Shown: positions 1 through 25,275, numbered from the stretch's first letter. The stretch is 64,000 nt of DNA from Methylococcus sp. EFPC2 (GCF_016925495.1 NZ_CP070491.1:1922001-1986000), one strand, 5' to 3'. Notes: generated from the letters alone by a model not told the origin. Made by a program: numbers and translations.

Positions 1-325
1 GCTTATGCGGCGCCGGTTAAGCGGTTGTAACCGCCCTGCAGTACCCCGATCTTCGCACCGGACCACATGCGACCCCCAAGGCTTGCCGTTTCATCCCCCC
101 TCTTTCCATCGCCGAGGGGGTATTCCAACGCGCGCAACACGCTGGACGAGCGGTGCGAATTCATAGGGACTGGGGCCGATTATCTGGATCGATTGAAGAG
201 CGGTGCGGCCGTGATTCCGTTCCGGCGTTCCGGCTGATACTATCGAATTACCACGCCTAGCCCGGCCAGGCGACAAGCAGGACTCCTTCACCTGCTGGCG
301 TGGTTCCTATCTTGAAGGGCTGGCC
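1..325. other. Left-edge stretch with no recognised gene
   Basis: I see no convincing coding region here. A minus-strand frame at 91-291 is low-complexity and resembles no family I know. The stretch precedes the first gene of the mobile element, so the element's left boundary and its integrase may lie here or outside the window. No tRNA was recognised. Confidence 0.4.
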
Positions 326-1030
326 TTGAAGGTGGCTTTCATGCAGGTCCCATCCTGGGTAACTCTCTTTGATACCGGCGAGAAGGAGCACCTTATTGAG
401 GTACTAAGGGATGAACTAAAAGCCGTTCAAGCGGGTTTTATAAAGCCTAGCCTTCACATAACTATACGCGAAATGCTTTTGCCCCTGATCCATGCTTACC
501 TGCTCGATTTCGATAAGCCGGGAAAGCCCGTATCTGAGAGTGTTCGATTAGCGGCCGAACTGTACTTTCTAGCGGCTGATGTGGCTGACAAAATCGAGCG
601 GTGTCGAGCTATAACTTACCATATTGACTCCCTGACTTCGTTATGGGACCAGTTTATTAAACATGGTTCAGCGTACCGGATATATCATGATCTCCCAAAT
701 GAAATTTCTGCCAAACAGGTAAGGTCCAAGAAGCAGAGCGAGCGAGCCAAAAAGCCGCGCCGCCTCTTGGAGTGTGACGATGGATCGGTGACAAACACTA
801 ATCAGATCATCGGGAAAATCGCAATTTCCAACGAGCACAAAAGCAAATCGCCAAAGGAATTATGGCTGGTTTTTTTCCATGAACTAGATAGATTAGGCTT
901 CGGCCCAAAGGAGCCTAAAAACTCGCCTATAAGATATATCTACGACCGAAACGGAGTGAGCGAGGAATATAAATACAGCTCCTTCCAAAAGGTCGTTTCA
1001 CTATACCGTACGGGGAAAAAATTACTCTAG
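326..1030 (+). CDS. Hypothetical protein, AT-rich orphan
   Basis: A protein of about 234 residues that I do not recognise. It is soluble, with no signal peptide or membrane segment, a basic middle section (KKQSERAKKPRR near residues 137-148) and a basic C-terminus. The start is uncertain: a TTG at 326 and an ATG at 341 are in the same frame, and neither has a clear ribosome binding site. Its base composition is visibly more AT-rich than the genes that follow, and codons such as ATA and AGA are frequent, which suggests separate acquisition. It sits at the left end of the phage-like element, a place where cargo genes are often found. A defence or accessory role is possible but nothing in the sequence shows one. 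Confidence 0.6.
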   Translation: MKVAFMQVPSWVTLFDTGEKEHLIEVLRDELKAVQAGFIKPSLHITIREMLLPLIHAYLLDFDKPGKPVSESVRLAAELYFLAADVADKIERCRAITYHIDSLTSLWDQFIKHGSAYRIYHDLPNEISAKQVRSKKQSERAKKPRRLLECDDGSVTNTNQIIGKIAISNEHKSKSPKELWLVFFHELDRLGFGPKEPKNSPIRYIYDRNGVSEEYKYSSFQKVVSLYRTGKKLL

Positions 1031-1055
1031 CCGCGGTTCGAGTAAAGTCGCCGAT

Positions 1056-1095
1056 ATCGTTTGACCCAGATAGCAACTGCACGGGGTCAAACGAT
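1056..1095. promoter_or_regulatory. Perfect 12-bp inverted repeat at the AlpA-like start
   Basis: The arms ATCGTTTGACCC (1056-1067) and GGGTCAAACGAT (1084-1095) are exact reverse complements separated by 16 bases. The right arm ends on the AT of the ATG at 1094. This could be an operator for the regulator that follows, or an mRNA hairpin that hides its start codon. The structure is directly visible; the function is inferred. Confidence 0.6.
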
Positions 1096-1339
1096 GCAAA
1101 AGAACTCTTCACAACCTGAACCGATTCCGGATGCGCTTCGTCATTTCGACGACCTGCCCAATAGCGCACACGTCCGCTTGCCTGTGGTCTGCGCCTTGTT
1201 CGCGTGCGCACCGGCAACGGTTTGGAGGAATGTAAAAAAGCAAAAGCTGCCGTCGCCGGCGCGCATTGGGGCTGGCGTCACCGCTTGGAATGTTGGGGCG
1301 CTTCGTCAGGTGATGTTGTCTTCGGGTGAGGATGCCTGA
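1094..1339 (+). CDS. AlpA-like helix-turn-helix phage regulator
   Basis: A small DNA-binding protein of 81 residues. The segment from HVRLPVVCALFACAPATVWRN to VTAWNVGALR has the AlpA/MerR-like pattern, in which the helix-turn-helix around ATVWRNVKKQKLPSP is followed by an ITAW-type turn. AlpA proteins of P4-like elements activate integrase or excision genes. A TTG at 1061 would add 11 residues, but I chose the ATG at 1094 because the inverted repeat ends exactly there. Its stop overlaps the start of the KilA-N gene, so the two are probably translationally coupled. Confidence 0.75.
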   Translation: MQKNSSQPEPIPDALRHFDDLPNSAHVRLPVVCALFACAPATVWRNVKKQKLPSPARIGAGVTAWNVGALRQVMLSSGEDA

Positions 1340-2013
1340 TGGCTAAACCTTCAAACCTCATCCGCTTGGCCTATCAGGAATTAAGCGTCGGCTTTACCAG
1401 GGAAGGCTGGTTCAATGCGACGGGAGTGGCTTCACACTTTGGTAAGCAGCCCCATGAGTGGCTGCGCCTGCCTGATACCGAGCGCTACTTGCGAGCTCTC
1501 GAAGGTAGATACGGGAAAATCCCGTATGTAAAAACCAGTCGCGCCCGCGTGGATCGGGGCGGTGGCACATGGCTGCACCCCAAGCTTGCGGTGGCGTTCG
1601 CGCGATGGCTGGATATCGATTTTTCAGTCTGGTGTGACGAACAGATTGATGCCTTGCTCCGTGGCAGTCACCCAGCCTACGACTGGGAAAAGGCCCGTTC
1701 CACTGCGACGGCCTCGTTCAGGGTGATGGTCGAGGTGCTCATCTTGGCGCGGCAGGCGGAAGGCAAGACCACGGCCCAGCATCATTTCGTCAACGAAGCG
1801 CGGCTGATCGCGTGGGCTGTCTCCGGGAAATTCGAGGCGCTCGATCGCGCATCGCTGACCGTCTCCCAGCTATCGCTGTTGGCTTTGCTGGAAGAACGCA
1901 ACGCCGTCTTGCTGGCGAGAAGTGTGCCCTACGGCGACCGCAAGCTTCTGCTCGAACAGTACGCACTCGACTGGCGCGCCCAACATCGGCCGGCGCTGGA
2001 GGCGGCCGCATGA
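1339..2013 (+). CDS. KilA-N domain protein
   Basis: A protein of 224 residues. The first 110 or so match the KilA-N fold: a GWFNATGVASHFGK segment, PHEWLRLPDTERYL, and the GTWLHPKLAVAFARWLD block that ends the domain. KilA-N is a DNA-binding module of phages and large DNA viruses, often in regulators or antirepressors. The C-terminal half is helical and not assigned. The gene begins one base inside the TGA of the AlpA-like gene, so they form one transcription unit. A regulatory or anti-repressor role in the element is likely, but the target is unknown. Confidence 0.85.
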   Translation: MAKPSNLIRLAYQELSVGFTREGWFNATGVASHFGKQPHEWLRLPDTERYLRALEGRYGKIPYVKTSRARVDRGGGTWLHPKLAVAFARWLDIDFSVWCDEQIDALLRGSHPAYDWEKARSTATASFRVMVEVLILARQAEGKTTAQHHFVNEARLIAWAVSGKFEALDRASLTVSQLSLLALLEERNAVLLARSVPYGDRKLLLEQYALDWRAQHRPALEAAA

Positions 2014-2297
2014 ATGCCTGCGTCAGCAACAACCCGTTGACAGCCGCAACGGGAGAGGCCTATCCTTTTTCCGTCGCCCCCCATGGGCGATACGGTCTTG
2101 GCGGACCGGTAAGTGAGCACAATCAAGGTGCTCGTGTGGCACCTTTTTTCATGCGCGGAATCCAGTTTCCATGGGTATCGTGCGCGGGCAGTCGCAAGAC
2201 TGGTCGGTCTCACTTCCGATCCGCCAACCCGTGTACGGTGCCCACCCTTTGCTTGGCGGCTGGGGCGGGTTTTCAAGACCCAAGTGAGGATTCCACC
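2014..2297 (+). other. Intergenic leader region with possible Ash/Icd-like overlapping frames
   Basis: This gap between the KilA-N gene and the next small gene contains a hairpin terminator (listed separately) and two open forward frames, one starting at an ATG at 2010 and running into the next gene. Their peptides are rich in Arg, Cys and Pro, and loosely recall the short overlapping Ash/Icd-type products annotated in P4-like satellites. I cannot show that either frame is translated. The region may act as an untranslated leader or transcription-attenuation zone. Confidence 0.3.
2125..2149 (+). terminator. Rho-independent terminator or attenuator
   Basis: The stem AAGGTGC/GCACCTT (2125-2131 and 2139-2145) with a 7-base loop is followed directly by more T residues. 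It lies between the regulatory genes and the replication operon, so it could end the alpA-kilA transcript or act as an attenuator for the genes downstream. Confidence 0.65.
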
Positions 2298-2582
2298 ATG
2301 TCTACCCAGACTCCCCCGGGCGTAATCTGCCCAAAATCCACCCTGCCCATAGACCAGGCCGCGCGCCTGGCAACCGTCTGCCGGCGCTTGAAAGAAGAGC
2401 TTGAAGCCGCTGCCGGCTTGGCTGCCGATCTATCCATAGACCACCGCGACATCCGCGAGCTCCGCGGCGTGCTACGCGATCTGGACAAGGCCTTTACCCT
2501 GGCCAAAGGCGCGCACCGAACCGCCGAAGGCCTTTGGGATGCCGCGTGCGAAGCCGAACGCAACCAGGGAGGGCAGCGGTAA
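2298..2582 (+). CDS. Small hypothetical phage-type protein
   Basis: A protein of 94 residues without a recognised domain. It is largely helical, with a coiled-coil-like stretch (LKEELEAAAGLAADL and RELRGVLRDLDKAFTLAK). The ATG at 2298 follows a GAGGA ribosome binding site. The TAA stop overlaps the ATG of the next gene by one base. It is the first of a run of tightly packed small genes leading to the primase, so it probably belongs to the same operon. Confidence 0.7.
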   Translation: MSTQTPPGVICPKSTLPIDQAARLATVCRRLKEELEAAAGLAADLSIDHRDIRELRGVLRDLDKAFTLAKGAHRTAEGLWDAACEAERNQGGQR

Positions 2583-2836
2583 TGGACGACATCATCCGAC
2601 GAATACTGGCGGGCTGTATCGAGGACGAGCAGCCCAGCAAAAGCCATCTCCAAACATTCAAAAGTGCCCGCGCGTTCGCCGGGGAATTGCTTGGCCGCCG
2701 CGCTGCCGGCGGAGAAGCCGGGATGCTTGCAGTCAGCGACAAAGAGCTGGAGGACATGCTGACGGAGGCTTTCCTCGCAGGTGTTGATCTTCGTGGGGAA
2801 CAAGAAGAGCAACTGGGAGGAGACCGCCATGGATAA
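2582..2836 (+). CDS. Small hypothetical protein
   Basis: A protein of 84 residues beginning in the stop codon of the previous gene. It is acidic and helical; a segment near residue 50 (LAVSDKELEDMLTEAFLAGVD) looks like a short helical hairpin. No family was recognised. It ends 8 bases inside the next gene, which has its own GGGAGGAG ribosome binding site within this frame. Confidence 0.65.
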   Translation: MDDIIRRILAGCIEDEQPSKSHLQTFKSARAFAGELLGRRAAGGEAGMLAVSDKELEDMLTEAFLAGVDLRGEQEEQLGGDRHG

Positions 2837-3143
2837 GCATCTCTCTCCCATAAACCGTGCTACGGCATCCGGGATAAATCCCTTAATCAAGGACGATTTA
2901 AGGGAAACCGCGGCGGCGGTGGCAAACGTCATCAACCTTCTGGCGTGTGCGACGACCGATGCAAGCGACCGCGGCTACCCGACAGGTGAAGGTCTTTGTT
3001 TTGTGCTTGAGGTCGTTCATGCGGCGCTCAAGTTCGAAATCGACAGGCCAGAGAATGCCGACCTGGGCGCCGCGGCCCTAACCCCGTCTCACACGGCCAA
3101 TGTCGTCGCGGCAGAAACACAGGGAGGGCACGACCATGGCTAG
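2829..3143 (+). CDS. Small hypothetical protein
   Basis: A protein of 104 residues of unknown function. The ATG at 2829 is preceded by a strong GGGAGGAG site at 5- to 12-base spacing, which decides the start over an earlier in-frame ATG at 2781. The centre is helical (DDLRETAAAVANVINLLACATTD). The 8-base overlaps with both neighbours show translational coupling. Confidence 0.65.
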   Translation: MDKHLSPINRATASGINPLIKDDLRETAAAVANVINLLACATTDASDRGYPTGEGLCFVLEVVHAALKFEIDRPENADLGAAALTPSHTANVVAAETQGGHDHG

Positions 3144-3789
3144 TACGCGAAAATTTGTCGAAGAGCATCACAAGAATGCTGAGCAAGAGGCGCTGTGGTT
3201 CGGCTTGCGCGCGCCGCTGCCCGATCATCCCATCAAATCCCGCGACGGGCTTTCATTCACTTACCGGTATCCGGAGCCGGCTCCCGAGGGATTGGCTGGG
3301 CTGCAAAATTGGTGGGTGCCGTTGGTCCCAAATTATTGGGATAACGGTATGACCTTGGGTCGGCGGATGTTTGCCGAAGTCGTCAGACTCGTAAACGCCG
3401 ACGTGGAGGCGGCCGAACATGCCTTGTGGTTCGGCATCGAGGCCATGATCCGCCAACACCGCTGCTCGGGCGTCGAAGACGGTTTCATCGAAGAGGTCGC
3501 CAAGTATGCCGTCATCGGTATGCAGGTGATGGCCAGCCAGGGCCACTTCGAAACGCCCGAAAGCTCAGAGTTGCGCGAAGAGTTGGAACGCGTTGGCTCG
3601 GCGCTTGATCGAGCTATTGCGCAGACGATGTCGGCGGGCCTGGCTGGTCGCGACGTGAAGGACAGTTTGCCGACCAGGCAGCACGGACGCGCACTCAATA
3701 AAGCAACCTATGCCATTGAGTCCGCAGTCAAGGCGCTGCGCTCTGCGCGCGCACTACTCAGTGATTTGCGGGGCAGCGAGCATGACTGA
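3136..3789 (+). CDS. Hypothetical protein upstream of primase
   Basis: A protein of 217 residues not assigned to a family. It contains two short related phrases, EALWFGLRAP and HALWFGIEAM, and the C-terminal half is helical. The ATG at 3136 lies 8 bases inside the preceding gene and follows GGGAGGG, supporting this start rather than the in-frame ATG at 3100. Its own last 8 bases overlap the start of the replication protein. The position suggests a replication accessory protein, but the sequence does not prove it. Confidence 0.65.
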   Translation: MASTRKFVEEHHKNAEQEALWFGLRAPLPDHPIKSRDGLSFTYRYPEPAPEGLAGLQNWWVPLVPNYWDNGMTLGRRMFAEVVRLVNADVEAAEHALWFGIEAMIRQHRCSGVEDGFIEEVAKYAVIGMQVMASQGHFETPESSELREELERVGSALDRAIAQTMSAGLAGRDVKDSLPTRQHGRALNKATYAIESAVKALRSARALLSDLRGSEHD

Positions 3790-6448
3790 CGTTCGCTCAG
3801 ATACTCTCAGCCCGGACTTTACCGAAGCCGCCAGGTTTCTCAGTCTGCTGGCCGAGGGTGAGGAAGCCTTTACTTTTCAGACCTTCGACGACCTGAAGAG
3901 CCGAAAAGATAAGAAGCTCGCGCATATCTTCCACGGTGACTTGGAGTCATGTGCGTCGGCGCTGGCCGACCTGAACAAACGCGGGTCCGGTGTTTTCGTA
4001 ACGGTCAACGAAACGGATGGCCATGGCCGCAAGCTGGAGAACATCGTCCGAATCCGCGCCGTCTGGCACGAGGAAGACACGCCCTGCGGCATAACGGAAT
4101 GGCCGCTGGAACCGCAGCTGGTCATCGAGTCGTCCCCGGGCAAGTTCCACCGCTACTGGCCGGTGGACGGGCTGACTCCTGCGCAGTTCACCGGTGTGAT
4201 GGAGCGGATGATTGCCGACTATGGCAGCGATCCGAACGTAAAAGACACGACACGCGTGTTGCGGTTGCCGGGGTTTTGGCACCTGAAAAATCCGGCCGCG
4301 CCGTTCCGCGTGCGCATCGTTCATGAATCGGGAGGGCTGCCGTATTCAGCTAGCCGGTTGCTCGAGGCATTTCCAATGCTAGAGCGGGCGGCAGTGTCGG
4401 CGCCAGTCAAGCCGGCGGGCGATTTGCCGCCCGGTGCTCATAAGTCGGTCGTAGCCGAGCTGGCCGGTCGGGCCGCGCGGCGCACGCATGAAGATCCCAC
4501 GCTCGGGCGGCATGCCATGGTGCTGTGGCTGGGGCGAGAGTGCGCGCACCGCGGTATCCCTGTCGACTGGGCGGAATTCGCCGTTCAGTCGTTCGCCGAA
4601 TTGATGCGCCCCACGGACACAACCGGCCAGGTCGTAGCGATGAACTTTTCCGGTGAGGTAAAGGCCTTTCGGGATGCTCATGTGGCGGGCCTGGCTGATC
4701 CAGCAGACAAGCGGACGCGGCGGTATTCGGAAAGCCCGACTCAGACTGCGCCCGACGATGCCGTGACCGAAGGTGCCCGTAATAAACATCTGGCCCGGAT
4801 GGCAGGGGCTTTGCGGCGATCTGGCGTAGGAGCTGGCGCGATCCTGGAAGCACTACGCGCGGAGAACGGCGCCCGGTGTCATCCCCCGTTGCCGGCGGGT
4901 GAGGTTGAGGGGGTTTGGAAATGGATATTGCGCGAGCAACAGCCCACGCAAGCTGCCGGACCGGCGGAGAACGATGCCGTGGTGCTGGAATGGCCGGACC
5001 CTAGTCTACCTACGTCGACCTTGGTTCCCGACATTCCGGCCGATGTGTTGCCGGGCTATGTCGGAGCCATGGCCGGTGCTGTGGCGGAAGCGACCCAGAC
5101 ACCGCCGGCAATGGCGGTGTTGTTCGCGCTCTCCACCCTGGCGACCGTGTTACAGCGTCGTTTCCTGGTGGCTCCTTTCGGCTCAGATTACACGGAACCG
5201 CTGAGCTTGTGGACGCTGGTAGCCTTGCCCTCGGGCTCACGTAAAACGGCCGTAATCAATGCACTAAGCGCTGTGCTTGCCCGCTGGGAGAAGCTGGAGC
5301 GGGACCGGATGCGCGGGGACATCGCGCGGAACGCGGCGGCGCGCGAGGTAGCCGAGAAGCGCATCGAGCGCCTGAAGGCCGAGGCGGCCAAGGCGAGCAC
5401 GGCCGACGATCGCGAGGCGCTGACGGCGGAAATTCAACGCGAAAAGGAACTGATGCCGTTGGAACTGCGTGCTCCACGCCTGTTCTCCGGGGATATCAAT
5501 AGCGAAGGCCTGCAGCGTTCGTTGGTCGAGTATGACGGTATGTGGTCCGTTCTGACGGATGAGGGCGGCATCTTTGCCGTGATGGCTGGTTTGCACACGG
5601 GCGGCCTTTCCAGCCTCGACGTTTTTCTCCAGGCGCACGCCGGCACACACCTCCGCGTCGACCGGGCTGGCCGGTCTGCTTACGTCGACCGCCCGGCCTT
5701 GTCGTTCGGCATGGCTCTGCAGCCCGGCATCCTGCGGGATGCTGCCAAGTCGCGGAAATTTCGAGACTCCGGCCTGTTGGCTCGCTTCCTCTTCGGCATC
5801 CCGCCATCGAACGTGGGTACCCGAGATGTGCGGCGCCATTCCGCGATTTCTGAGACGGTCAAGGAAGCATGGGAATCAAACATCATGGGCTTGCTCGACT
5901 CGATGGAAAGGCCATTGAGCGCGCCGGTTGTGCTGCCGTTCGACCAGGATGCCCTGAGCCTTTGGCTGGATTTCTCGGAGGAATTGGAGCGTGAGCAAGG
6001 CGCGGGCGGGCGCTACGCGCATATCGCGGACTGGACATCAAAACTGCCGGGCGCGGTGGCGCGCGTGGCTGGGCTGCTGGAACTGGCGATCCACGGGGTG
6101 GACGTGCGGCGCGTGCGGCAGGAGTCGGTGGCACGGGCGGTTGCCTTGGGCCGTCTGCTTATTCCCCACGCCGAGGCGGCATTCTCGCTCATGGGCGCAG
6201 GAGTCGGCGAGGACGATGCCCTTGCCTTGCTGGCCTGGATACGGGCGCAGAAGCTTGAGCGATTGCATCGGCGAGAGGCCCAGCAGGCGTTGCGTGGGCG
6301 CTTCCCTACGCTCGACAAGCTCAAGTCTGCCGTTGAGCAGCTGGGGGAATGGCATGTCCTCGGGCCTGAAATCAAAGAGCGTGCGAGCGAAAAAGGCGGG
6401 CGGCCGTCGGCTGCCTACGTGGTCAACCCCAAGGTGCATGTCGCATGA
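3782..6448 (+). CDS. RepB-type primase/DUF3987 replication protein
   Basis: A protein of 888 residues from the ATG at 3782, which overlaps the upstream gene by 8 bases. Residues 1-200 resemble a RepB-family DNA primase: a beta-rich core with FVTVNETDGHG, VIESSPGKFHRYWPV and a TTRVLRLPGFWHLKN motif. The middle and C-terminal part match DUF3987, a P-loop ATPase/helicase-like domain of phage and plasmid replication proteins; the loop reads ALPSGSRKTAVINAL (about residue 480), with Arg where the usual motif has Gly. A charged coiled coil follows the P-loop. Such proteins start replication of phages and satellites from a nearby origin, which fits the palindromic iteron block immediately downstream. 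Confidence 0.85.
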   Translation: MTDVRSDTLSPDFTEAARFLSLLAEGEEAFTFQTFDDLKSRKDKKLAHIFHGDLESCASALADLNKRGSGVFVTVNETDGHGRKLENIVRIRAVWHEEDTPCGITEWPLEPQLVIESSPGKFHRYWPVDGLTPAQFTGVMERMIADYGSDPNVKDTTRVLRLPGFWHLKNPAAPFRVRIVHESGGLPYSASRLLEAFPMLERAAVSAPVKPAGDLPPGAHKSVVAELAGRAARRTHEDPTLGRHAMVLWLGRECAHRGIPVDWAEFAVQSFAELMRPTDTTGQVVAMNFSGEVKAFRDAHVAGLADPADKRTRRYSESPTQTAPDDAVTEGARNKHLARMAGALRRSGVGAGAILEALRAENGARCHPPLPAGEVEGVWKWILREQQPTQAAGPAENDAVVLEWPDPSLPTSTLVPDIPADVLPGYVGAMAGAVAEATQTPPAMAVLFALSTLATVLQRRFLVAPFGSDYTEPLSLWTLVALPSGSRKTAVINALSAVLARWEKLERDRMRGDIARNAAAREVAEKRIERLKAEAAKASTADDREALTAEIQREKELMPLELRAPRLFSGDINSEGLQRSLVEYDGMWSVLTDEGGIFAVMAGLHTGGLSSLDVFLQAHAGTHLRVDRAGRSAYVDRPALSFGMALQPGILRDAAKSRKFRDSGLLARFLFGIPPSNVGTRDVRRHSAISETVKEAWESNIMGLLDSMERPLSAPVVLPFDQDALSLWLDFSEELEREQGAGGRYAHIADWTSKLPGAVARVAGLLELAIHGVDVRRVRQESVARAVALGRLLIPHAEAAFSLMGAGVGEDDALALLAWIRAQKLERLHRREAQQALRGRFPTLDKLKSAVEQLGEWHVLGPEIKERASEKGGRPSAAYVVNPKVHVA

Positions 6449-6511
6449 TCCATCTACACAAAACCCCGATAGAGGGGGTGCTACGAGGTCGTTCGGACCT
6501 TTCACAGAACC

Positions 6512-6588
6512 TTTTCACAAAACTACACAAAATTCACAAAACCGGTTTTGTGAATTCACTCTCGGAGGTTTTGTGTGTTTTGTGAAAA
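6512..6588. repeat. Nested palindrome 1 of the candidate origin
   Basis: Outer arms 6512-6532 and 6569-6588 are complementary with one extra T in the left arm. Within them, 6531-6556 is a perfect 26-bp palindrome with half-site AATTCACAAAACC and no spacer. Each half carries CACAAAA units, giving three on each side. Confidence 0.85.
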
Positions 6589-6680
6589 ACGCCTAAAGGG
6601 TTTTTTAGACCTTTATTTATATATATTTTCAATAACTTACGACGGTCTCAACATGAGCCAGAGAAAATGCCCCGGAGTCT

Positions 6681-6730
6681 ATTCACAAAACCCACAAAAC
6701 CTAGGAGGGGGTTTTGTGGGTTTTGTGAAT
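6681..6730. repeat. Palindrome 2 of the candidate origin
   Basis: The 21-bp arms at 6681-6701 and 6710-6730 are perfect reverse complements around an 8-base spacer. Each arm holds two CACAAAA units about 9 bases apart. The unit is the same as in palindrome 1, so one protein probably reads both blocks. Confidence 0.85.
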
Positions 6731-6768
6731 TGTGTTTCGCACTTTTCCCCAATTTTGAGGACAGCGAA

Positions 6769-7062
6769 ATGAGTACAGCAGAAAACCTTGCCAGAGGACG
6801 TACCCCGACCTTGATTGCCGACGATGTAAAGGTGAAGCGCATGGCGCGGGCAGCGGGTGTATGGCCGTTGTTGCGCAAGGCGCATAGGGACGGACGGCCG
6901 TGTTTGGTCGTGCGTGGGCTCACCGCGTATGCCGCCTTCGAAGACGGATTCGCCGCCGTGGTGTGTGGCGAGCTGGCCGACCTGGTCGAGTTGATGACCG
7001 TCATGTGCGCCTTGTTGCAGATCGAGGCCGCCAATATTCAGAAACTATGGACTATCCATTGA
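6769..7062 (+). CDS. Small hypothetical protein downstream of origin
   Basis: A protein of 97 residues with no recognised family. A GAGGA site precedes the ATG at 6769. The N-terminal third is basic (VKVKRMARAAG) and the remainder alternates small and hydrophobic residues. It is the first gene after the palindrome block and could be expressed from a promoter inside it. Confidence 0.65.
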   Translation: MSTAENLARGRTPTLIADDVKVKRMARAAGVWPLLRKAHRDGRPCLVVRGLTAYAAFEDGFAAVVCGELADLVELMTVMCALLQIEAANIQKLWTIH

Positions 7063-7266
7063 GGTTGCCGATGCGAGACCGGAAGGGTGGGTCGATTCTT
7101 CCAAGCCAATCCACCAGGACTGGTGTGCGTGTTTTTTGCGTGCCGTCGCGAAATGGAATAGGGGGGGCCATGAAATTCCTTGGGGCTTTCTGCCCTTGGA
7201 CCGGTCTGGTGTATTTTTTTGCAGCGGCGGGAGTTTCCGAGGGGGGGTACCCCGCGGAGTTCACCA
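7063..7266 (+). other. Leader-like gap with a possible short peptide
   Basis: This spacer between two small genes includes an ATG at 7170 preceded by a run of seven G residues, which would encode a 34-residue hydrophobic peptide ending at 7274 and overlapping the next gene. The arrangement, a short alternative-frame peptide reading into the following gene, resembles the gap at 2014-2297. Translation is not established. Confidence 0.3.
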
Positions 7267-7530
7267 ATGACTAGACACCGCCGCCGCAAGCCTCGTGATT
7301 TCGACGATGCATTGGACACCACCCTGTCCGACCCTGCCGAAACCGCGTTTACGGTCTTGGCCGGGCCGGCACCGTGCGATGGCTGCTTCGGGAACTGGCG
7401 GTGCAAATCCGAGAAGTTGGCGTGCTCCGACTTCGCCCATTTCGTTGCTACTGGCCGAACAATCGACGGCAGCCGACAGGCCAACGTCCACACGTTCCGG
7501 CGGCTCTTCTCCGCCGATGGAGACCGCTGA
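7267..7530 (+). CDS. Small cysteine-containing hypothetical protein
   Basis: A protein of 87 residues with four cysteines arranged C-x2-C-x5-C-x6-C (CDGC, then Cys in WRCK and ACSD), a spacing compatible with a small metal-binding knuckle. The N-terminus is strongly basic (MTRHRRRKPRD). Similar four-cysteine proteins are common among phage early genes without known function. The TGA overlaps the next ATG by one base. Confidence 0.65.
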   Translation: MTRHRRRKPRDFDDALDTTLSDPAETAFTVLAGPAPCDGCFGNWRCKSEKLACSDFAHFVATGRTIDGSRQANVHTFRRLFSADGDR

Positions 7531-7964
7531 TGAATTTCACCCCACCCCGCACCGGCAAACATGCGCGCGGCATGCACGAACTGGCCATCCTGTTGAGTCG
7601 AGTGCTTGCCGTCGACCCGGCTGCCAGCTTCCAGGATGCCGTCGCCGGCTTGCAGCACATCCGGCACCCGATGTTGAACGGCCTGGGAATCCACGTCAGG
7701 CGGCGGTGGATAGCGACCCAGCGCGATCGGCGTAGTTGGTGGGACCGCGCTGCGGCGTCGGCTCATGCCGCCGGCAAGGTGCCAGTGGTCGCCTACCGCC
7801 TCGACCGCGAGCCTGACTGGACCTTCATACGCCCGTTGACGGCGGGGCGCCTGAGCTTCGACGAAACTGCGTCCCTTCCTAGCATCCGCGCTTTTTTGAC
7901 AAGTCTGCGGCATTGGCCACTCGGCCCATTGTCGGCCAATCACACACCTGGGGAGGACAAATGA
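7530..7964 (+). CDS. Hypothetical phage protein, possible resolvase/nuclease relative
   Basis: A protein of 144 residues. The segment SWWDRAAASAHAAGKVPVVAYRLDRE resembles the C-terminal part of small phage PDDEXK-type nucleases and Holliday junction resolvases, in which a Trp-containing helix is followed by a P-V-x-x-Y-R strand. I do not see an unambiguous catalytic D/ExK set, so it may be an inactive relative or a chance likeness. It overlaps its neighbours on both sides and belongs to the same operon. Confidence 0.6.
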   Translation: MNFTPPRTGKHARGMHELAILLSRVLAVDPAASFQDAVAGLQHIRHPMLNGLGIHVRRRWIATQRDRRSWWDRAAASAHAAGKVPVVAYRLDREPDWTFIRPLTAGRLSFDETASLPSIRAFLTSLRHWPLGPLSANHTPGEDK

Positions 7965-8170
7965 TCGAAAGTATCGATTTCAATATCCGGATGATGCTTG
8001 AGACGAATGAATGTGTCCCGACGCTCAGCTTCGTCGACCCCGATGGTCGCCGCCAGCAGGTATGGCAGGGTGATCCCTGTGCCGATGTCCGAACCGCCTC
8101 GGAGGCGTTGTGCCTGGCGCTCCGCAAAATCACGAACGCTATTCGCGCCCAACGGGGCCCTGTGCATTGA
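7961..8170 (+). CDS. Very small hypothetical protein
   Basis: A protein of 69 residues starting 4 bases inside the previous gene, with a GGGGAGGA ribosome binding site. It reads as a compact beta-rich unit (PTLSFVDPDGRRQQVWQGD) followed by a helix. No family was recognised. Confidence 0.6.
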   Translation: MIESIDFNIRMMLETNECVPTLSFVDPDGRRQQVWQGDPCADVRTASEALCLALRKITNAIRAQRGPVH

Positions 8171-8196
8171 GTGCGGGCGCCAGCGGCAAAAATCCG

Positions 8197-8214
8197 GCCG
8201 GGCGGTTTCCCGGC
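8197..8214 (+). repeat. Short hairpin with CGGTTT loop, copy 1
   Basis: The stem GCCGGG/CCCGGC encloses the loop CGGTTT. A second hairpin with the same loop but a shuffled GC stem occurs at 8696-8711. Both stand just upstream of a gene start and have no T-run, so they are more likely RNA-processing or translation elements than terminators. Confidence 0.5.
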
Positions 8215-8235
8215 GATGCCCAGCGGAGATCCACG

Positions 8236-8682
8236 ATGAGACGATATCTTCAACATGCCGACAACCTCCGGCGCGCCGCAAAAATGCAAGCTGCGGCGGA
8301 TTCGATCTGCGCCCAACGGCTCGAGCGCTGCAAGGCCGCTGTCACCGCGCGCCGGCTTGAACGTGAGTCCCGCGCCCGAATCGAAGCGCGGGGCCCGACG
8401 CCCACCCATGTGCCGATGCCACCTGCGCCCACCCGCGCCCCCTCCGGAAACTTGCGGCGGCTATATCAGAGCGCGACATCCAAATACGAGCGCCGGCTGA
8501 TCATCGAGCTGCAGAAGCTAGAGATCAACAATTTACGCCGGGGTCGTGTTAGCCCCCCAACGCCCGTCAATTCTGCGCGCCCTACGGCTACCGGCAACCC
8601 ATACGCTGCAAGTTTCGCCCGCAAGCAGTCCCAATGGCGAGCCGCCGCGTATGCCGGATGGAAGAGCGAAGCGAACTCTTGA
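8236..8682 (+). CDS. Hypothetical basic protein
   Basis: A protein of 148 residues, rich in Arg and Ala. The N-terminal 55 residues form a charged helix (RLERCKAAVTARRLERESRARIEARG), then comes a Pro-rich linker (PTHVPMPPAPTRAPS), a second helix (YERRLIIELQKLEINNLRR) and a low-complexity tail. No family was recognised. The composition suggests a nucleic-acid-binding or structural accessory role. Confidence 0.55.
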   Translation: MRRYLQHADNLRRAAKMQAAADSICAQRLERCKAAVTARRLERESRARIEARGPTPTHVPMPPAPTRAPSGNLRRLYQSATSKYERRLIIELQKLEINNLRRGRVSPPTPVNSARPTATGNPYAASFARKQSQWRAAAYAGWKSEANS

Positions 8683-8695
8683 TTCATAGAACCGG

Positions 8696-8711
8696 CCCGG
8701 CGGTTTCCGGG
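8696..8711 (+). repeat. Short hairpin with CGGTTT loop, copy 2
   Basis: The stem CCCGG/CCGGG encloses the loop CGGTTT, matching the loop of the hairpin at 8197-8214. It lies 25 bases upstream of the coiled-coil gene. Conservation of the loop with rearranged stem bases suggests selection on an RNA structure. Confidence 0.5.
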
Positions 8712-8735
8712 ACCCTAAACCTTGGAGATATACCG

Positions 8736-9317
8736 ATGAATCTTCGTTTACCCCAAAAAACCGAAATCCTATTGCAGAAATTCTTGAGCAGCCCTACCGC
8801 CCAACAGGTGCAGTCGGAGCTCGACGCCGACCGGATACGACAACGCAAAACGCTAAGTCGGGAGCTTGGCGTGTTGGGCATTCAAACCGAAAAAGCCGTC
8901 AAGGATGCCGAGGCCCGCCTTCCGGCTGCCGGCGAGAAGGTAGCCGCAGCGCGGGCCAAGCTGAATGAAGCCGCCAACGAATACTATGCCGTCGAGGCGG
9001 AAATCACCGCTGCCCGCTTGGAATACGACAGGCGCCGGGATCAGATCGAGGCCGAGCTAAAAAGAACGGCATCGGAGCAAATTGCCGTCTTTGCCGAACG
9101 CATGGACGGCGAGCGCAGGGGGCTTGAGCAGAACTATTCCAGAGCCACAGCCCGGCGCGCGCTGGCTCTGGGCAATCTTGTGCACCAAGAGCTCCCTCGT
9201 GTGGCTTTGTTGCCGCTCGACGAGGCGGCACTCGAAGCAAAGCTGCAAGCGCTATATGCCGCGCTGCCGCCAGGCAAAGACGAGGCCCTTGAAGCAGACC
9301 TAGCAGCGGTCAACTAA
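8736..9317 (+). CDS. Coiled-coil hypothetical protein
   Basis: A protein of 193 residues, helical over most of its length. Residues 45-130 form a long heptad-patterned coiled coil (AVKDAEARLPAAGEKVAAARAK and EYDRRRDQIEAELKRTASEQ). A GGAG site precedes the ATG at 8736. It immediately precedes the terminator and the tape-measure gene. A scaffold or tail-assembly function would fit that position, but no family was recognised. Confidence 0.6.
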   Translation: MNLRLPQKTEILLQKFLSSPTAQQVQSELDADRIRQRKTLSRELGVLGIQTEKAVKDAEARLPAAGEKVAAARAKLNEAANEYYAVEAEITAARLEYDRRRDQIEAELKRTASEQIAVFAERMDGERRGLEQNYSRATARRALALGNLVHQELPRVALLPLDEAALEAKLQALYAALPPGKDEALEADLAAVN

Positions 9318-9384
9318 GGGACAACCACAAGCCACGCTCCAATGCGGCGCATAGCGCGACCTATCAACCCGCCGCCCTGCCCCC

Positions 9385-9402
9385 AGGCCGGCGGGCCTTT
9401 TT
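9385..9402 (+). terminator. Rho-independent terminator
   Basis: The stem AGGCC/GGCCT with a four-base loop is followed by TTTT. It separates the run of small early genes from the tape-measure gene, which implies that the latter has its own promoter or depends on readthrough. Confidence 0.65.
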
Positions 9403-9426
9403 AACATCCCCTAAACGGTGATTCCG

Positions 9427-11544
9427 ATGGCATCCATTCTATCCTCCCTCTCCATCGACTTAAGCGCCAACATCGCCCGGCTGCAAGCCGACATGAACCG
9501 CGCCAACGCGACCACCGCGCAAGGATTTGCGCGCATGGAGTCTGTGGCCCGCTCCACCTCAAGCGCCATCAAGGGCCTGATCGGCGGCGCTTTTGCCGGC
9601 ATCACGTTGGGCAAGTCGTTCGAAATCCTCAAAGAGTTCGACACCCTCAACGCTAGCTTGAAAACGGTCACCGGCTCGCTGGACGCCGCAGGGCAGGCAT
9701 CCACGATGTTGCGGCAGTTTGCCACGGAAACGCCCTACGAGCTCAAGGACGTGACCGAGGCCTTCATCCGCCTCCGTTCGCTGGGCCTGGATGCGTCGGT
9801 AGAGTCGCTGCGCTCGTTCGGCAATACCGCCTCGGCCATGGGCAAGCCGTTGATGCAGTTTATCGAGGCGGTTGCGGATGCAAGCACGGGCGAGTTCGAG
9901 CGGCTGAAAGAATTCGGCGTCAAGGCCAAACAAAACGGCGATCAGGTCGCGCTGACCTTCCAGGGCCAGACCACGACTATCAAGAACAGCGCGCAGGAGA
10001 TTCAGCGGTATCTGCTGGACCTTGGCAATACAAAATTCGCCAGTGGCATGAAAGACCAGATGGAGACCCTGAGCGGCGCCTCCTCAAACCTCAGCGACTC
10101 ATTCAGTAATTTGGTCGATACCATAGGCAATCTAGGGGTAAGAGACGCGATAAAAGCCAGTTTTGGCGGCGCGGTCGAACTGCTCAACGAGTTGAACCGA
10201 GAAATCCACGCCTTCAACTCGGACGATTTGACCGCCAGGATCACCCGCTACGAAGATAGCTTTTATGCCCTGAACGAACAGTTGAAGGCATCCAAACAAG
10301 CGACCAAGAGTCTTGGCGACCAGCTCAAATATGCATTTACGGAAGGCGGCGGATTCGGCGTTTCCGATCAGGACGTCCAGCAACTGCAGGGCCGTGTCGA
10401 TACGGCGAAAGACATGCTGCACAAGCTCTATGCGGAACGCGCTGCATTGGAGAAAAACGCGCCCGACACAGGCGGCACACCCCAGACGCGACCAGCGCCA
10501 AGCGCTGCGCCGAATAAGAGTCAGCAAAACGACGCCTTACAACAATTCCGCGCCAACCTATCCGGCATGCAAGATGCGTATCGCCAGCAGCAGGAATTGT
10601 TACGCGCGTTTTACGACTACGACCAGGCTGCGGCCGGCGAGAATGCGCAAAAAAAGCTGGAAGCCGAACGGCGCTACCTGGAAGACTCCGCTGCACTGCA
10701 AGAGCGCAACATTCAGCAGAACATAGACGCCAAACAACAAGAGCTCGCCGCCATCAAGGACCGGGGCGATCAAGCCAAAATCATCGGCGAAATCACCGCG
10801 CTGGAATCGGAGCTGAGCAACCAGCGTGCTATTTCCGCCCTCAAGCTGCAAACGCTCTCCGAAGAAGAAACGCGGTCGGCGAAGCAGCGCCGTGATGAGA
10901 TCTACAGCGTATTCGAGGCCGTGAAGATGAAAGCCGACGAGGACCTCGTCAACGGCATCTCCGGCACCGACGATAAACTGAAGGGCGCCACCGATTCCGC
11001 CCGTGAATTCGGCCTGGTGCTCAGCTCGGCGGCCGGGCAGGCCATCACCAACTGGCAGGGATTCGGCAACCTGTTGCAATCGCTGGGCCAGGACATTTCA
11101 CAGCTCATCCTGAAAACCACCGTGCTCCAGCCGCTGGAAGATAGCCTGAGTAATATCAATTGGGGATCCATTGGCAGCAGCCTGCTCAGCTCATTCTTCT
11201 TCGCAGACGGAGGCATCATGACCTCACGCGGCCCCCTGCCGCTGCATGCCTATGCCTCCGGCGGTATCGCCAATTCCGCGCAGCTCGCCGTGTTCGGCGA
11301 AGGGAGACAGCCCGAGGCCTTCGTGCCGCTGCCGGATGGCCGCTCTATCCCTGTGACCGTTAGCGGCACGGGGTCTGAGTCTGCGGTGCCAAATATCACC
11401 CAAATATTCAATATTCAGGGTGGGGGCGATGCCGGTTTAGAAAGGCGCTTGGCGCAGGCAGCGGAGGATGGCGCCAAACGTGGCTATGCCATGGTGCAGT
11501 CAGACTTCCAACGGAACGGACCAATCCGTCGCACTCTGCGTTGA
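9427..11544 (+). CDS. Phage tail tape measure protein
   Basis: A protein of 705 residues from the ATG at 9427; a GTG at 9418 would add three. Residues 60-220 match the tape-measure N-terminal domain, with the characteristic ATETPYELKDVTEAFIRL, LQSF-like LRSFGNTASAMGKP, and FGVKAKQNGDQVALTFQG blocks. The middle is a long helical coiled coil (residues 350-500) and the C-terminus has Gly-rich ASGGIANSAQLAVFGEGRQPEAFVPLPDG, typical of lambda-like tail length rulers. Such proteins set tail length and pass into the host with DNA. No tail tube, chaperone or tip gene flanks it, which is highly unusual for this family. Confidence 0.92.
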   Translation: MASILSSLSIDLSANIARLQADMNRANATTAQGFARMESVARSTSSAIKGLIGGAFAGITLGKSFEILKEFDTLNASLKTVTGSLDAAGQASTMLRQFATETPYELKDVTEAFIRLRSLGLDASVESLRSFGNTASAMGKPLMQFIEAVADASTGEFERLKEFGVKAKQNGDQVALTFQGQTTTIKNSAQEIQRYLLDLGNTKFASGMKDQMETLSGASSNLSDSFSNLVDTIGNLGVRDAIKASFGGAVELLNELNREIHAFNSDDLTARITRYEDSFYALNEQLKASKQATKSLGDQLKYAFTEGGGFGVSDQDVQQLQGRVDTAKDMLHKLYAERAALEKNAPDTGGTPQTRPAPSAAPNKSQQNDALQQFRANLSGMQDAYRQQQELLRAFYDYDQAAAGENAQKKLEAERRYLEDSAALQERNIQQNIDAKQQELAAIKDRGDQAKIIGEITALESELSNQRAISALKLQTLSEEETRSAKQRRDEIYSVFEAVKMKADEDLVNGISGTDDKLKGATDSAREFGLVLSSAAGQAITNWQGFGNLLQSLGQDISQLILKTTVLQPLEDSLSNINWGSIGSSLLSSFFFADGGIMTSRGPLPLHAYASGGIANSAQLAVFGEGRQPEAFVPLPDGRSIPVTVSGTGSESAVPNITQIFNIQGGGDAGLERRLAQAAEDGAKRGYAMVQSDFQRNGPIRRTLR

Positions 11545-11606
11545 CCGGTAGAATGGATCGTCGTCTGCTCGGCAGTGTTCAGATATGGAGGGCGAATCAT
11601 ACGCAG

Positions 11607-11628
11607 AGCCGGGGGCGCTCCCGGCTTT
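11607..11628 (+). terminator. Terminator after tape measure gene
   Basis: The stem AGCCGGG/CCCGGCT with a six-base loop is followed by TT and then a C-rich stretch. It lies 63 bases after the stop of the tape-measure gene. The short T-run makes it a moderate terminator. Confidence 0.5.
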
Positions 11629-11814
11629 CCCTGCCGACCACGTGCTCGCCCTGTCTTCCGAGCATCGGTAGATACGAGGGTCAGGGCAAGGCATTAAACA
11701 CGGCAGTCCAAACGTCAGGCGGGCGTCTACTAGGCAGGCAGCGTCAAAGATGCGCCGCAGGCCTGGATACGGAAATCTGAATATGACCGTCTCACGTCGC
11801 CTTATCCAAGCGTA

Positions 11815-11842
11815 ACCGTCGTGACGGTATATTTGACGGTAT
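11815..11842. repeat. GACGGT repeats, candidate attachment or arm sites
   Basis: TGACGGTAT occurs at 11822-11830 and again at 11834-11842, and ACCGTC at 11815-11820 forms an inverted pair with the first copy. The 12-base period is close to one helical turn, as in integrase arm sites. Their position at the end of the element is suggestive only. Confidence 0.35.
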
Positions 11843-11949
11843 CCGTCTCCATTGAAAAACAAGATTCCGCTATATACGTGCCTCACAGCGAGCCGTTTGG
11901 TTGTGACCATCGCACCAATAGTTAGTATCAAGCCGTCGCAAGACGCCTC

Positions 11950-11985
11950 AAAACCCGCGAGCCGCAAGGCTAGGCGGGTTTTTTG
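11950..11985. terminator. Strong bidirectional terminator
   Basis: The stem AAAACCCGC/GCGGGTTTT (11950-11958, 11974-11982) encloses a second small hairpin AGCC-GCAA-GGCT with a GNRA tetraloop and is followed by more T residues. With A residues on the left and T residues on the right, it can end transcripts from both the element and the chromosomal genes opposite. Confidence 0.7.
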
Positions 11986-12055
11986 TTGTTGGCTGCCTTC
12001 CCCATGCATCCCCCACCGCCATGTAGGGTGGTTATGTACGATGGCTTCGGAGCGG

Positions 12056-15551: not shown

Positions 15552-18500
15552 CTAGCGCGCGACCGTTCCGAAAACCTGGGTCGCATAGCGGATGGTCGTG
15601 CCACTGGCATAAGTGAACTGCACATTCAGCACCACAGACTCGCCCGGTTTGAGCAGCGTCTTGCTCACATCCAGGTAGTAATGGCCCGTCTGATCCACCT
15701 TCGCCCCCGTTATCGACACACCGGTGCCGGTCAGCTCGAACACCACGCGGATCGGGCTCTTGATATCCATGATCGAAGCATTGGTCAGGGTCAGGTTGAC
15801 CGAGCTGGTCATTTTCCGGGTCTTGCGATCCAGCGTGGTTTTCTGATCGGACGAGACGATCAGCACCAGATCGCTGACATCCTGCTCGCGCAGTGCCGGT
15901 GCGACCTTAACCACGACATTGTCGCTGGTTTCGGTAGCACCATCGGACACCGTGACTTTCAGTACATATTCGCCCGCCACGTCCGGTACGAACGCCGCTC
16001 TGGCCGCTATGTTCGCATCGGGCGTGATCGCGCTGTTGTCGAGACCGCTGCCGGTCGGCACGGATACCAGACTCCAGGCATAGCTCAAAGGCCAGGGCCC
16101 CTGATCGGGATCGTGGCTCGCCCCCGCATTCAAGGCGGCGGTGTCGCCGAGCTGCAGCGCGAGATCGGACCCCGCATCAGCCACAGGCGGCACGTTGGCC
16201 GGCGTGACCGTGATATTCAGGGTATCCGTCGCGGTGTCCCGGCCGTCGAACACGTGCAGTTCCACGGTATAAACGCCTGGCAGATCGGTGCTGAACTGGG
16301 CCACCGGCGCGGTCTCGTCCTGCAACACACCGTGACCGGCCTCCGGCTCGCTCAACAGGCTCCAGGCGTAGGTCAACGCCACCGGGCCGGCATCGGGATC
16401 GAGGCTGCCGTGACCGTCGAGCACCGCCGTAGCGCCCACGGCCACTGTTTGATCCTGCCCGGCTTGCGCGTTGGGCGGCACATTGGCGGCTGCCGCGGCG
16501 ATCTCCACGTACGCCGGTTCGCTGTCCAGCTTACCGTCCGAAACAATGAGTTCCAGCCGATAGAGACCGGCGACATCGGGGACGATGCGCGGGCTCGGCG
16601 TGTGATTGTCGGCGATAGACGTATCCACCAGGTCGCTGCCCGCGGGTACCGCCAGCAAGCGCCAGCGGTAGTCGGTCAGCAAATCGCCGTCCGGGTCGCT
16701 GGAGGCCGAACCGTCAAGGGCGACGGCGGAATTCGTGTACACGTTCCGGTTTTGGCCGGCCTGGGCCGCCGGCGCGCGGTTGACCGCGGCCGTCGCGATC
16801 TGCGCGAGCAGATCTTTCTGCACGGTGGCATCCGTCGTCGAGCCGATCCGGACTTTGACCGTGCCGTTCAGACCCGGCGCTTCCAATCGTACCCTGAGGC
16901 TCAGGCTACCGTCGCCCAGACCGGGCAGGCGGAACAGCGAGACGCTCTGGCCGGGCTGTCCATCCTGGCCTATCAAGGTCGCCGCAGCGCCGCCGCCGAC
17001 CTGAACGATGCTCGCCGTATAGGCATCTTCCACGTTGCCGGTATTCTTCACCCGCAGGGTGAAATCGGCGGAACCCGGATTCGGCAGTACCTGCGTCGGC
17101 GGGTCCAGGCTGGCGTCCAGGGCTTTGTGCGGAGCAATTTCGACATTCGCGCCGGCCGTGGCACCGACCGCCCCGTCATTGCGGGCGACCGCGTGGCCAA
17201 ACAGGCTCAGTCTGCCGGGCAGCGCCCAGTCGTAGTTGCCGAGCGCCACACTGACATCCCAAAACGCGCCAGGCAGCAGGTCCACGCTGGTTGTTCCCAG
17301 TATCGCCGACAAGGCGCCGGCACCGCCCAAGCTGAGGTCGAAGACCCCGCCCAGGCGGCCGGTATTGGATACGCGAAGCAGCAAGGACGTATTCGGGCTG
17401 CCCTGGTCCGGCAGGAAGGCCAGGGCCACGCCGTAATCCGACACCTTGAGCAGACCGGAGGCCGTGTTCGTCACCGTGGAATCCGTGGTAGACACGGCGG
17501 ACACCAGGACCGGATAGTCGCCCGCCGGCGTGCCGGGAGGCGGCACCACGACCAGACTGACATCGCGGTAGCTGCCGAGCCCCGGAGCGACCGCCACGGT
17601 CTGCTCGCTGAAGCTGGCGGCGAATCCGGCCGGCAGGCTCGCAACCAGGTTGTAGCTGTCAGCCGTCGCGCCGACGTTGGACAAACGGACTGTGTACAGC
17701 GCCTGCGTACCCTGCCCCGCGGCGACCACTGCTGGCGTCAACCTCAGGTCGAATGCACGGGTATCCAGCGCGACTTCGGCCGCGGAACCTCCCGCCTCGC
17801 TGATCACGATCTGGGCGTTCACCCTGTCTTTCACCCCGTCGGCCGTGGTGGCCTGGACGGCGAATCCCTCGCTGCCGGGCAGGCTGGTGTAGGGCACATG
17901 TACGCCCAGCGCGAAAGTCTTAACCTCGCCGGCCGCCAGGTTCAGCGTAGCCGGCAGTTCATAGCTGCCGTCCGGCAAGCCGCTGACGGACAGGTCGAAG
18001 GTTTGCGCGTGGGCGAACGGATTGCTCAACGTTACCGTGAAGCTGGTGCTATCACCCGCGGTGGCGCTCTGTACCGCCGGGGCGAGCGTAAGGATGTGCT
18101 GCGCACTCACGAAGAGCGGCGCCAGTTCCAGCGTGCCGTTACCGGCGACGCTGGAATAGTCCACCGTGGTTCCCCGGCTGATCTGGCGCACTTCGCCGGG
18201 CTGCATGCCCTTTAGTTCGGAAAGCAGGCTGAACGACTGCCCCGCATCCGAATTGATCAGTCCGTCCCACTGCAACGACGCGGTATCGCCGGTCGTCGTC
18301 TGCGACGAGGGTACGGGGCTGAAAGAGCCTGCAAGCGGAACGCTCCCCGTCGTGGCCGCCGCGCGGTGATCCACATTCACGGTGATCGAAGACAGATTCT
18401 CGAAGATGGTCGGCAAGGCGATCTGCACCCAGGTGGTAGAGGCCAGCCGCCGCTGCACATCGGGGGGAGCATCCCAGGAGCCGTCCTGCTTCTGCGCGCC

Positions 18501-25055: not shown

Positions 25056-25275
25056 ATCTCTCACCTCTCGTTGGATCCCGTTGCCCGGGTCTCGGACACC
25101 CGGTGCCACGACTTCGCCCTCTTGCGGATACTTGCCCACGCCAACATGGCTGGCTGATCCCGACAACCCATCGCCTGCCCAATCGCCACTGCCGAAGTTG
25201 CTACGGAATTACACTGGGCCAAGGCGACGACTTTCGTATTTGGCGGAAGTCCTGCCCGCCACGTTCGCCGTTCGA

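Follow-up and report, generated by a model that had tools for sequence, protein, structure and literature searches.

Phage satellites have long been known to redirect the capsid size and the packaging of the phages that they exploit, and tape measure proteins (TMPs) set the length of phage tails and are ejected together with the DNA. Remodelling of a helper tail by a satellite TMP was described in 2026, for PLEs only: their TMPs replace the helper TMP in chimeric tails that are about 10 nm shorter, PLE1 and PLE4 lose 96-99% of their transduction when tmp is deleted, and the authors, who also predict tmp genes for further putative satellites, cf-PICIs among them (Extended Data Fig. 10b), leave the reach of the strategy open (PMC12987554, Nature 2026). 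PLEs respond to one lytic myophage (ICP1) and carry a tail chaperone, and some of them a baseplate hub, in addition to the TMP. A different tail gene was borrowed by the Pseudomonas AH14b satellite, in which a P4-type integrase, AlpA and a primase accompany a single tail-assembly gene (TAPI) homologous to that of the helper (PMC4936722).

The window, that is the whole stretch of 64,000 nucleotides that was analysed, corresponds to C1:1922001-1986000 of the 4.56-Mb, three-contig genome of Methylococcus sp. EFPC2. Most of an integrated element of 15.6 kb (C1:1918431-1933989) lies inside it, the remaining 3.57 kb being to its left. The element is real and probably a functional satellite and, by likeness to the Vibrio cholerae PLEs, we consider it fairly probable that it puts its own TMP into the tails of a helper phage. 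Its features are as follows, with window positions wherever no contig is named.

C1:1918352-1918436: tRNA-Leu(gag); a 78-bp repeat (attL) starts in its 3′ end, from C1:1918431
C1:1918549-1919838: intact tyrosine integrase, 429 aa, just inside attL and 2.2 kb left of the window
C1:1919981-1921629: ImmA/IrrE-like gene (334 aa) and overlapping 215-aa gene
1 to 11989, + strand: in-window part of the integrated element
118 to 234, + strand: last 39 residues of a second, broken P4-type integrase, sharing 56% identity with the intact integrase
326 to 1030, + strand: 234-aa protein matching no family
1061 to 1339, + strand: AlpA-family regulator, 92 aa, homologous (8e-20) to an AlpA-like protein of a sister island
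1339 to 2013, + strand: KilA-N protein, 224 aa (PF04383, 6.7e-20)
3710 to 6448, + strand: replication protein, 912 aa, RepB_primase, PriCT_1 and DUF3987 (DUF3987, 1.4e-94)
about 6500 to 6746, no strand: candidate origin with TTCACAAAACC/GGTTTTGTGAA repeats and a perfect 21-bp palindrome
6667 to 7062, + strand: 131-aa protein with a homologue in the same place in island L086 (5562-5858)
8739 to 9317, + strand: 192-aa protein, helical (coiled-coil), encoded just before the TMP
9427 to 11544, + strand: intact 705-aa tail tape measure protein, encoded by the element's last gene (TMP_3, 2.3e-14; phrog_1716, 1.8e-52)
11912 to 11989, + strand: attR, 78 bp, 74/78 (95%) identical to attL at the tRNA-Leu(gag) 3′ end

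The original prediction had let the block begin at position 326 and had seen no integrase. Both statements have to be corrected, since the element starts at attL, so that 326 is no border, and an intact integrase lies left of the window. That flank had been singled out as the place where an integrase, or head and tail genes, might be found; the integrase and the attL at tRNA-Leu are there, and no head or tail gene is located immediately to the left. Insertion at the tRNA-Leu(gag) 3′ end would be catalysed by the satellite's own integrase. The integrase remnant, detected by tblastn (2.5e-7) and also as a 75% DNA repeat, indicates that the left cassette was once exchanged or stacked. The 215-aa gene matches phrog_18577 (3.8e-103) and phrog_15597 (7.7e-56), and together with the ImmA/IrrE-like gene it may make up a satellite cassette for defence or a toxin-antitoxin pair. 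A secG-tRNA-Leu query found matches in 37 of 38 genomes of the family, which include Methylocaldum sp. 14B (G417) and Candidatus Methylocalor cossyra (G420); in most of them the match ends at the tRNA 3′ end, and in some it continues into the att sequence, at least twice beside a related integrase, which identifies the site as an integration hot spot. Just beyond the element, the minus strand holds a 3204-aa open frame (window 15552-25166) that reads like a surface/adhesin-type repeat protein.

Judged by its organisation, the locus appears to be of the Gram-negative PICI/P4-like type, with which it shares a tRNA site, a P4-type tyrosine integrase, an AlpA-family regulator downstream of the integrase, a primase-helicase and the lack of a complete tail module. 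The AlpA-like regulator, the KilA-N protein, the primase/DUF3987 protein and the candidate origin had all been predicted, and each was recovered. The 92-aa regulator itself matches no Pfam or PHROG family; its sister-island homologue matches phrog_66 'excisionase and transcriptional regulator' (7.5e-6), and the protein probably regulates excision. The KilA-N protein is 56% identical, over its full length, to that of the second TMP element of the genome. Replication would start from the iteron origin, whose palindrome has its arms at 6681-6701 and 6710-6730, and would depend on the satellite's own primase-helicase. Iterons occupy the equivalent place in islands L086 and L316, and the 131-aa protein is 53% identical over 49 aa (1.3e-14) to its homologue in L086, a lone-TMP satellite of Methylocaldum sp. 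14B. In contrast to P4, the primase is of the RepB-DUF3987 type and not P4 alpha, and Psu, sid and delta were not recognised. No PHROG match to terS or to another packaging or redirection gene was obtained among the small ORFs scanned, and the element may represent a Gram-negative PICI type without terS.

Among the ORFs scanned, no terminase, portal, capsid, chaperone or further tail gene was recognised, in agreement with the prediction of a phage-satellite-like element whose single structural gene is the TMP; integrase and replication genes are its own, and the virion and packaging set is incomplete. The TMP gene, whose integrity the original prediction had wanted tested, is intact, being a single open frame uninterrupted by stops (GC at the three codon positions 0.595/0.439/0.725); translation from the ATG at 9427 gives 705 aa, and from the first GTG, at 9418, it would give 708. 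The protein matches many tape-measure PHROGs, its N-terminal part, with the TMP_3 domain, is up to 60% identical to other TMPs, and near the C-terminus it shares 57-73% identity with phage TMPs across stretches of 52-82 residues. A protein search of the genome found no other TMP of this kind.

The 192-aa protein encoded directly upstream may be a partner of the TMP. A homologue precedes a TMP of a different Pfam family in island L281 (score 97, against 38 for shuffled sequences, sd 6, maximum 62). AlphaFold predicts one 133-residue helix (pLDDT 76, pTM 0.32), a model in which a globular chaperone fold is absent; sequence and fold searches of the PDB gave nothing, and no relatives of the gene were found in IMG/VR. 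Weak matches in G420 and G451 were rejected, as they fall in chromosomal genes and look like chance coiled-coil matches. The counterpart in island L316 matches a Psu-like PHROG (3.5e-6), a family of match that coiled coils also yield by chance, and the window gene has no Psu match. A terminator-like hairpin separates the helical gene from the TMP gene.

With the PLEs, the element shares a mobilisation and replication programme combined with its own TMP, a likeness in gene content; it differs in that its TMP_3-family TMP stands alone, no chaperone having been found. The cf-PICIs with a putative tmp combine it with a capsid, as do islands L084/L099 and L179 described below, whereas the window element has neither capsid nor packaging gene. 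AH14b resembles it in its P4-type integrase, AlpA, primase and single tail gene, although there the borrowed gene encodes a tail assembly protein and not a TMP.

Searches with the TMP, with its family models and with the gene upstream of the TMP brought out eight more islands that carry a TMP and lack a tail operon. Six belong to Methylococcales, one of these lying in the chromosome studied here, and two to other gammaproteobacteria. For the islands outside this genome (L086 to L057), absence of a tail operon refers to ORF inspection and family scans of selected ORFs. The TMP-bearing islands are:

C1:4255044-4274305, same genome, 19.3 kb: flanked by 46-bp repeats at tRNA-Arg(ccg); integrase, a 911-aa TMP (PF10145, 3e-37) whose start AlpA overlaps, KilA-N, DUF927, TerS (phrog_57) and GpA-type TerL, without capsid or portal
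L086, Methylocaldum sp. 14B, 13.15 kb: 29-bp imperfect repeats at tRNA-Leu(caa); integrase, primase-like protein, iterons, 131-aa-gene homologue, 545-aa TMP as last gene
L084/L099 (Methylocaldum sp. 14B) and L179 (metagenome): HK97-type capsid, 90-aa protein and TMP, with differing integrases
L089: integrase at tRNA-Leu(caa), 749-aa TMP, IS elements and one extra morphogenesis-type gene (Phage_tail_S)
L281: 13.1 kb between repeats at tRNA-Met; DUF3987/Toprim, helical-gene homologue, 546-aa TMP
L316: integrase near tRNA-Ser, DUF927 primase, TGTAACAGG iterons, helical gene, 647-aa TMP
L052, outside Methylococcales: integrase, AlpA and TMP
L057, outside Methylococcales: integrase, DUF927 and TMP at tRNA-Pro

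The order integrase-primase-iterons-TMP is common to the window element, L086 and L316, and the helical protein precedes the TMP in the window element, L281 and L316. Since the sister islands repeat the arrangement, the ruler looks like a tool kept for satellite-specific tails and not like a leftover. The expectation that the TMP would be found beside the primase in other hosts was borne out in so far as other hosts do combine a TMP with a replication module without tail operon; it failed in so far as elements with a related integrase or primase often have no TMP. Likewise, the TMP is intact in the window, and one decayed relative exists, a broken fragment near a transposase-like gene on a Methylocalor plasmid (L088:9601-10100). 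Further right on this plasmid, at 17-18 kb, repeated peptides suggest a CRISPR-like repeat array.

The satellite TMPs belong to at least two unrelated Pfam families (PF20155, PF10145) and to several separate lineages. A tree built from 68 TMP_3 domains places the window TMP, L084 and L179 in one clade (SH-aLRT 99), separate from all 62 phage-context TMPs; the TMPs of L086, L052 and L057 fall at other points, each next to phage TMPs. A single origin of all six satellite TMPs within TMP_3, a group picked before the tree was built, was rejected (AU p about 5e-50, on a tree with long branches). These scattered positions indicate that the TMP was recruited several times, and the clade that one satellite TMP lineage is common to satellites with unrelated replication genes. 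Indeed, the capsid-90aa-TMP blocks of L084 (8592-12998) and L179 (5621-9938) are 94-96% identical at the protein level and their integrases and helicases differ, as if the block were a module moving between satellites. Between these two nearest relatives of the window copy, the TMP has a dS of 0.141, a dN of 0.031 and a dN/dS of 0.217 over 656 codons (0.236 for the capsid); the whole protein is under purifying selection except a glycine/serine linker, where changes concentrate.

Most homologues of the window TMP sit in ordinary tail operons. In a survey of 84,980 species genomes and IMG/VR, inspection of about 160 TMP loci left the L084/L099-L179 type as the only satellite, so that TMPs of this family rarely stand alone, yet do so repeatedly in satellites. 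Nine low-conservation TMP loci (L110, L136, L249, L204, L090, L195, L203, L138 and L253) were discarded as lone TMPs because they are ordinary tail operons, and the weak match in L096 proved to be no TMP locus. Nor is the TMP a constant part of this integrase family: local TMP models found none in 34 family islands, many of which are truncated by contig ends, and the models missed L316, later spotted by eye and with PHROGs.

We propose that, upon helper infection, the satellite TMP would be produced and would replace the helper TMP in helper tails, the capsid, the packaging functions and nearly all tail parts being supplied by the helper. In the resulting satellite particles, tail length and the DNA-ejection plug would be set by the satellite TMP. 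A helper prophage in the same genome, which the original prediction had suggested looking for, was rejected: the PF04860 portal and PF05065 capsid families have no match anywhere in the genome, and a search with TMP_3 and PhageMin_Tail returned two TMP-bearing elements only, that of the window and C1:4255044-4274305. The helper phage may be lytic. Against the proposal, we counted this absence of a helper prophage by the two families, the lack of a chaperone with the TMP, unlike in PLEs, the hairpin before the TMP and the many islands with a related integrase and no recognisable TMP.

At least five satellite-like islands are present in this genome (at C1:0.29, 0.56, 1.79, 1.92 and 4.26 Mb). One (C1:290618-291868, L268) has an integrase 75% identical to that of the window element, an AlpA homologue and a primase-like protein; no TMP was recognised in it, which makes it a TMP-less relative. 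Another (G000:C1:1791600-1800500; L271, L274:2588-3466) is an integrase island in which the only virion gene recognised encodes a 292-aa structural protein (phrog_6121, 2.7e-38), which suggests that single-virion-gene satellites are not confined to tape measures.

The lack of a TAC gene in the window element also fits a different, rather unlikely role, in which the TMP is a weapon that competes for helper chaperone and tail tube proteins and poisons the tail assembly of the helper or of competing phages, regardless of any use that the satellite makes of it. Defence systems are known to act on tail assembly (PMC12987554, PMC11364771), and the ImmA/IrrE-like gene and its neighbour may be a defence or toxin-antitoxin pair. 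However, the window TMP retains both conserved ends of a working TMP, and selection in L084/L179 spares only the linker. The two roles, weapon and building block, are mutually compatible.

Slightly less likely still, the TMP could act mainly at entry, the ejected plug matching the helper particle to a new host's inner membrane or to its exclusion systems; the gain would then be host range or escape from superinfection exclusion and not tail length. The recruitment of TMPs from unrelated families agrees with this, as does the lone phrog_6121 protein, an unlikely ruler; moreover, siphophage TMPs are ejected and contact inner-membrane proteins, according to HK97 work as cited in PMC11364771. On the other hand, lone satellite TMPs are somewhat shorter than phage-context TMPs (median 683 against 966 aa, n=9 and 134, p=0.009, with non-independent rows and mixed families), a faint hint of shorter tails and hence of length. 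Finally, a decayed prophage that lost every morphogenesis gene except the TMP is very improbable and was rejected, because the att sites, integrase, primase and TMP are all intact, TMPs of differing lineages recur in eight further islands without tail operon, and the nearest TMP relatives are in other satellites and not in phages, even if the second integrase remnant shows rearrangement and a broken TMP exists on the Methylocalor plasmid.

The reading that we favour therefore remains a satellite that would place its own TMP in helper tails. More tentatively, and just short of what we would call probable, methanotrophs may harbour 'ruler satellites' that repeatedly and independently captured a single phage TMP each, of siphovirus or myovirus type, exchange it among themselves as a module, and remodel helper tails without a chaperone of their own and with a dedicated helical partner encoded upstream. 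TMP-bearing satellites have been known since 2026; what is new, as far as the literature found shows, is the form with neither chaperone nor capsid, the fact that it arose repeatedly, and a TMP clade confined to satellites. Next to the PLEs, these islands are an unrelated, recurrent and simpler case, in methane-oxidising bacteria, hosts of industrial interest, and they let one test directly whether a single ruler gene suffices to retarget a helper tail.
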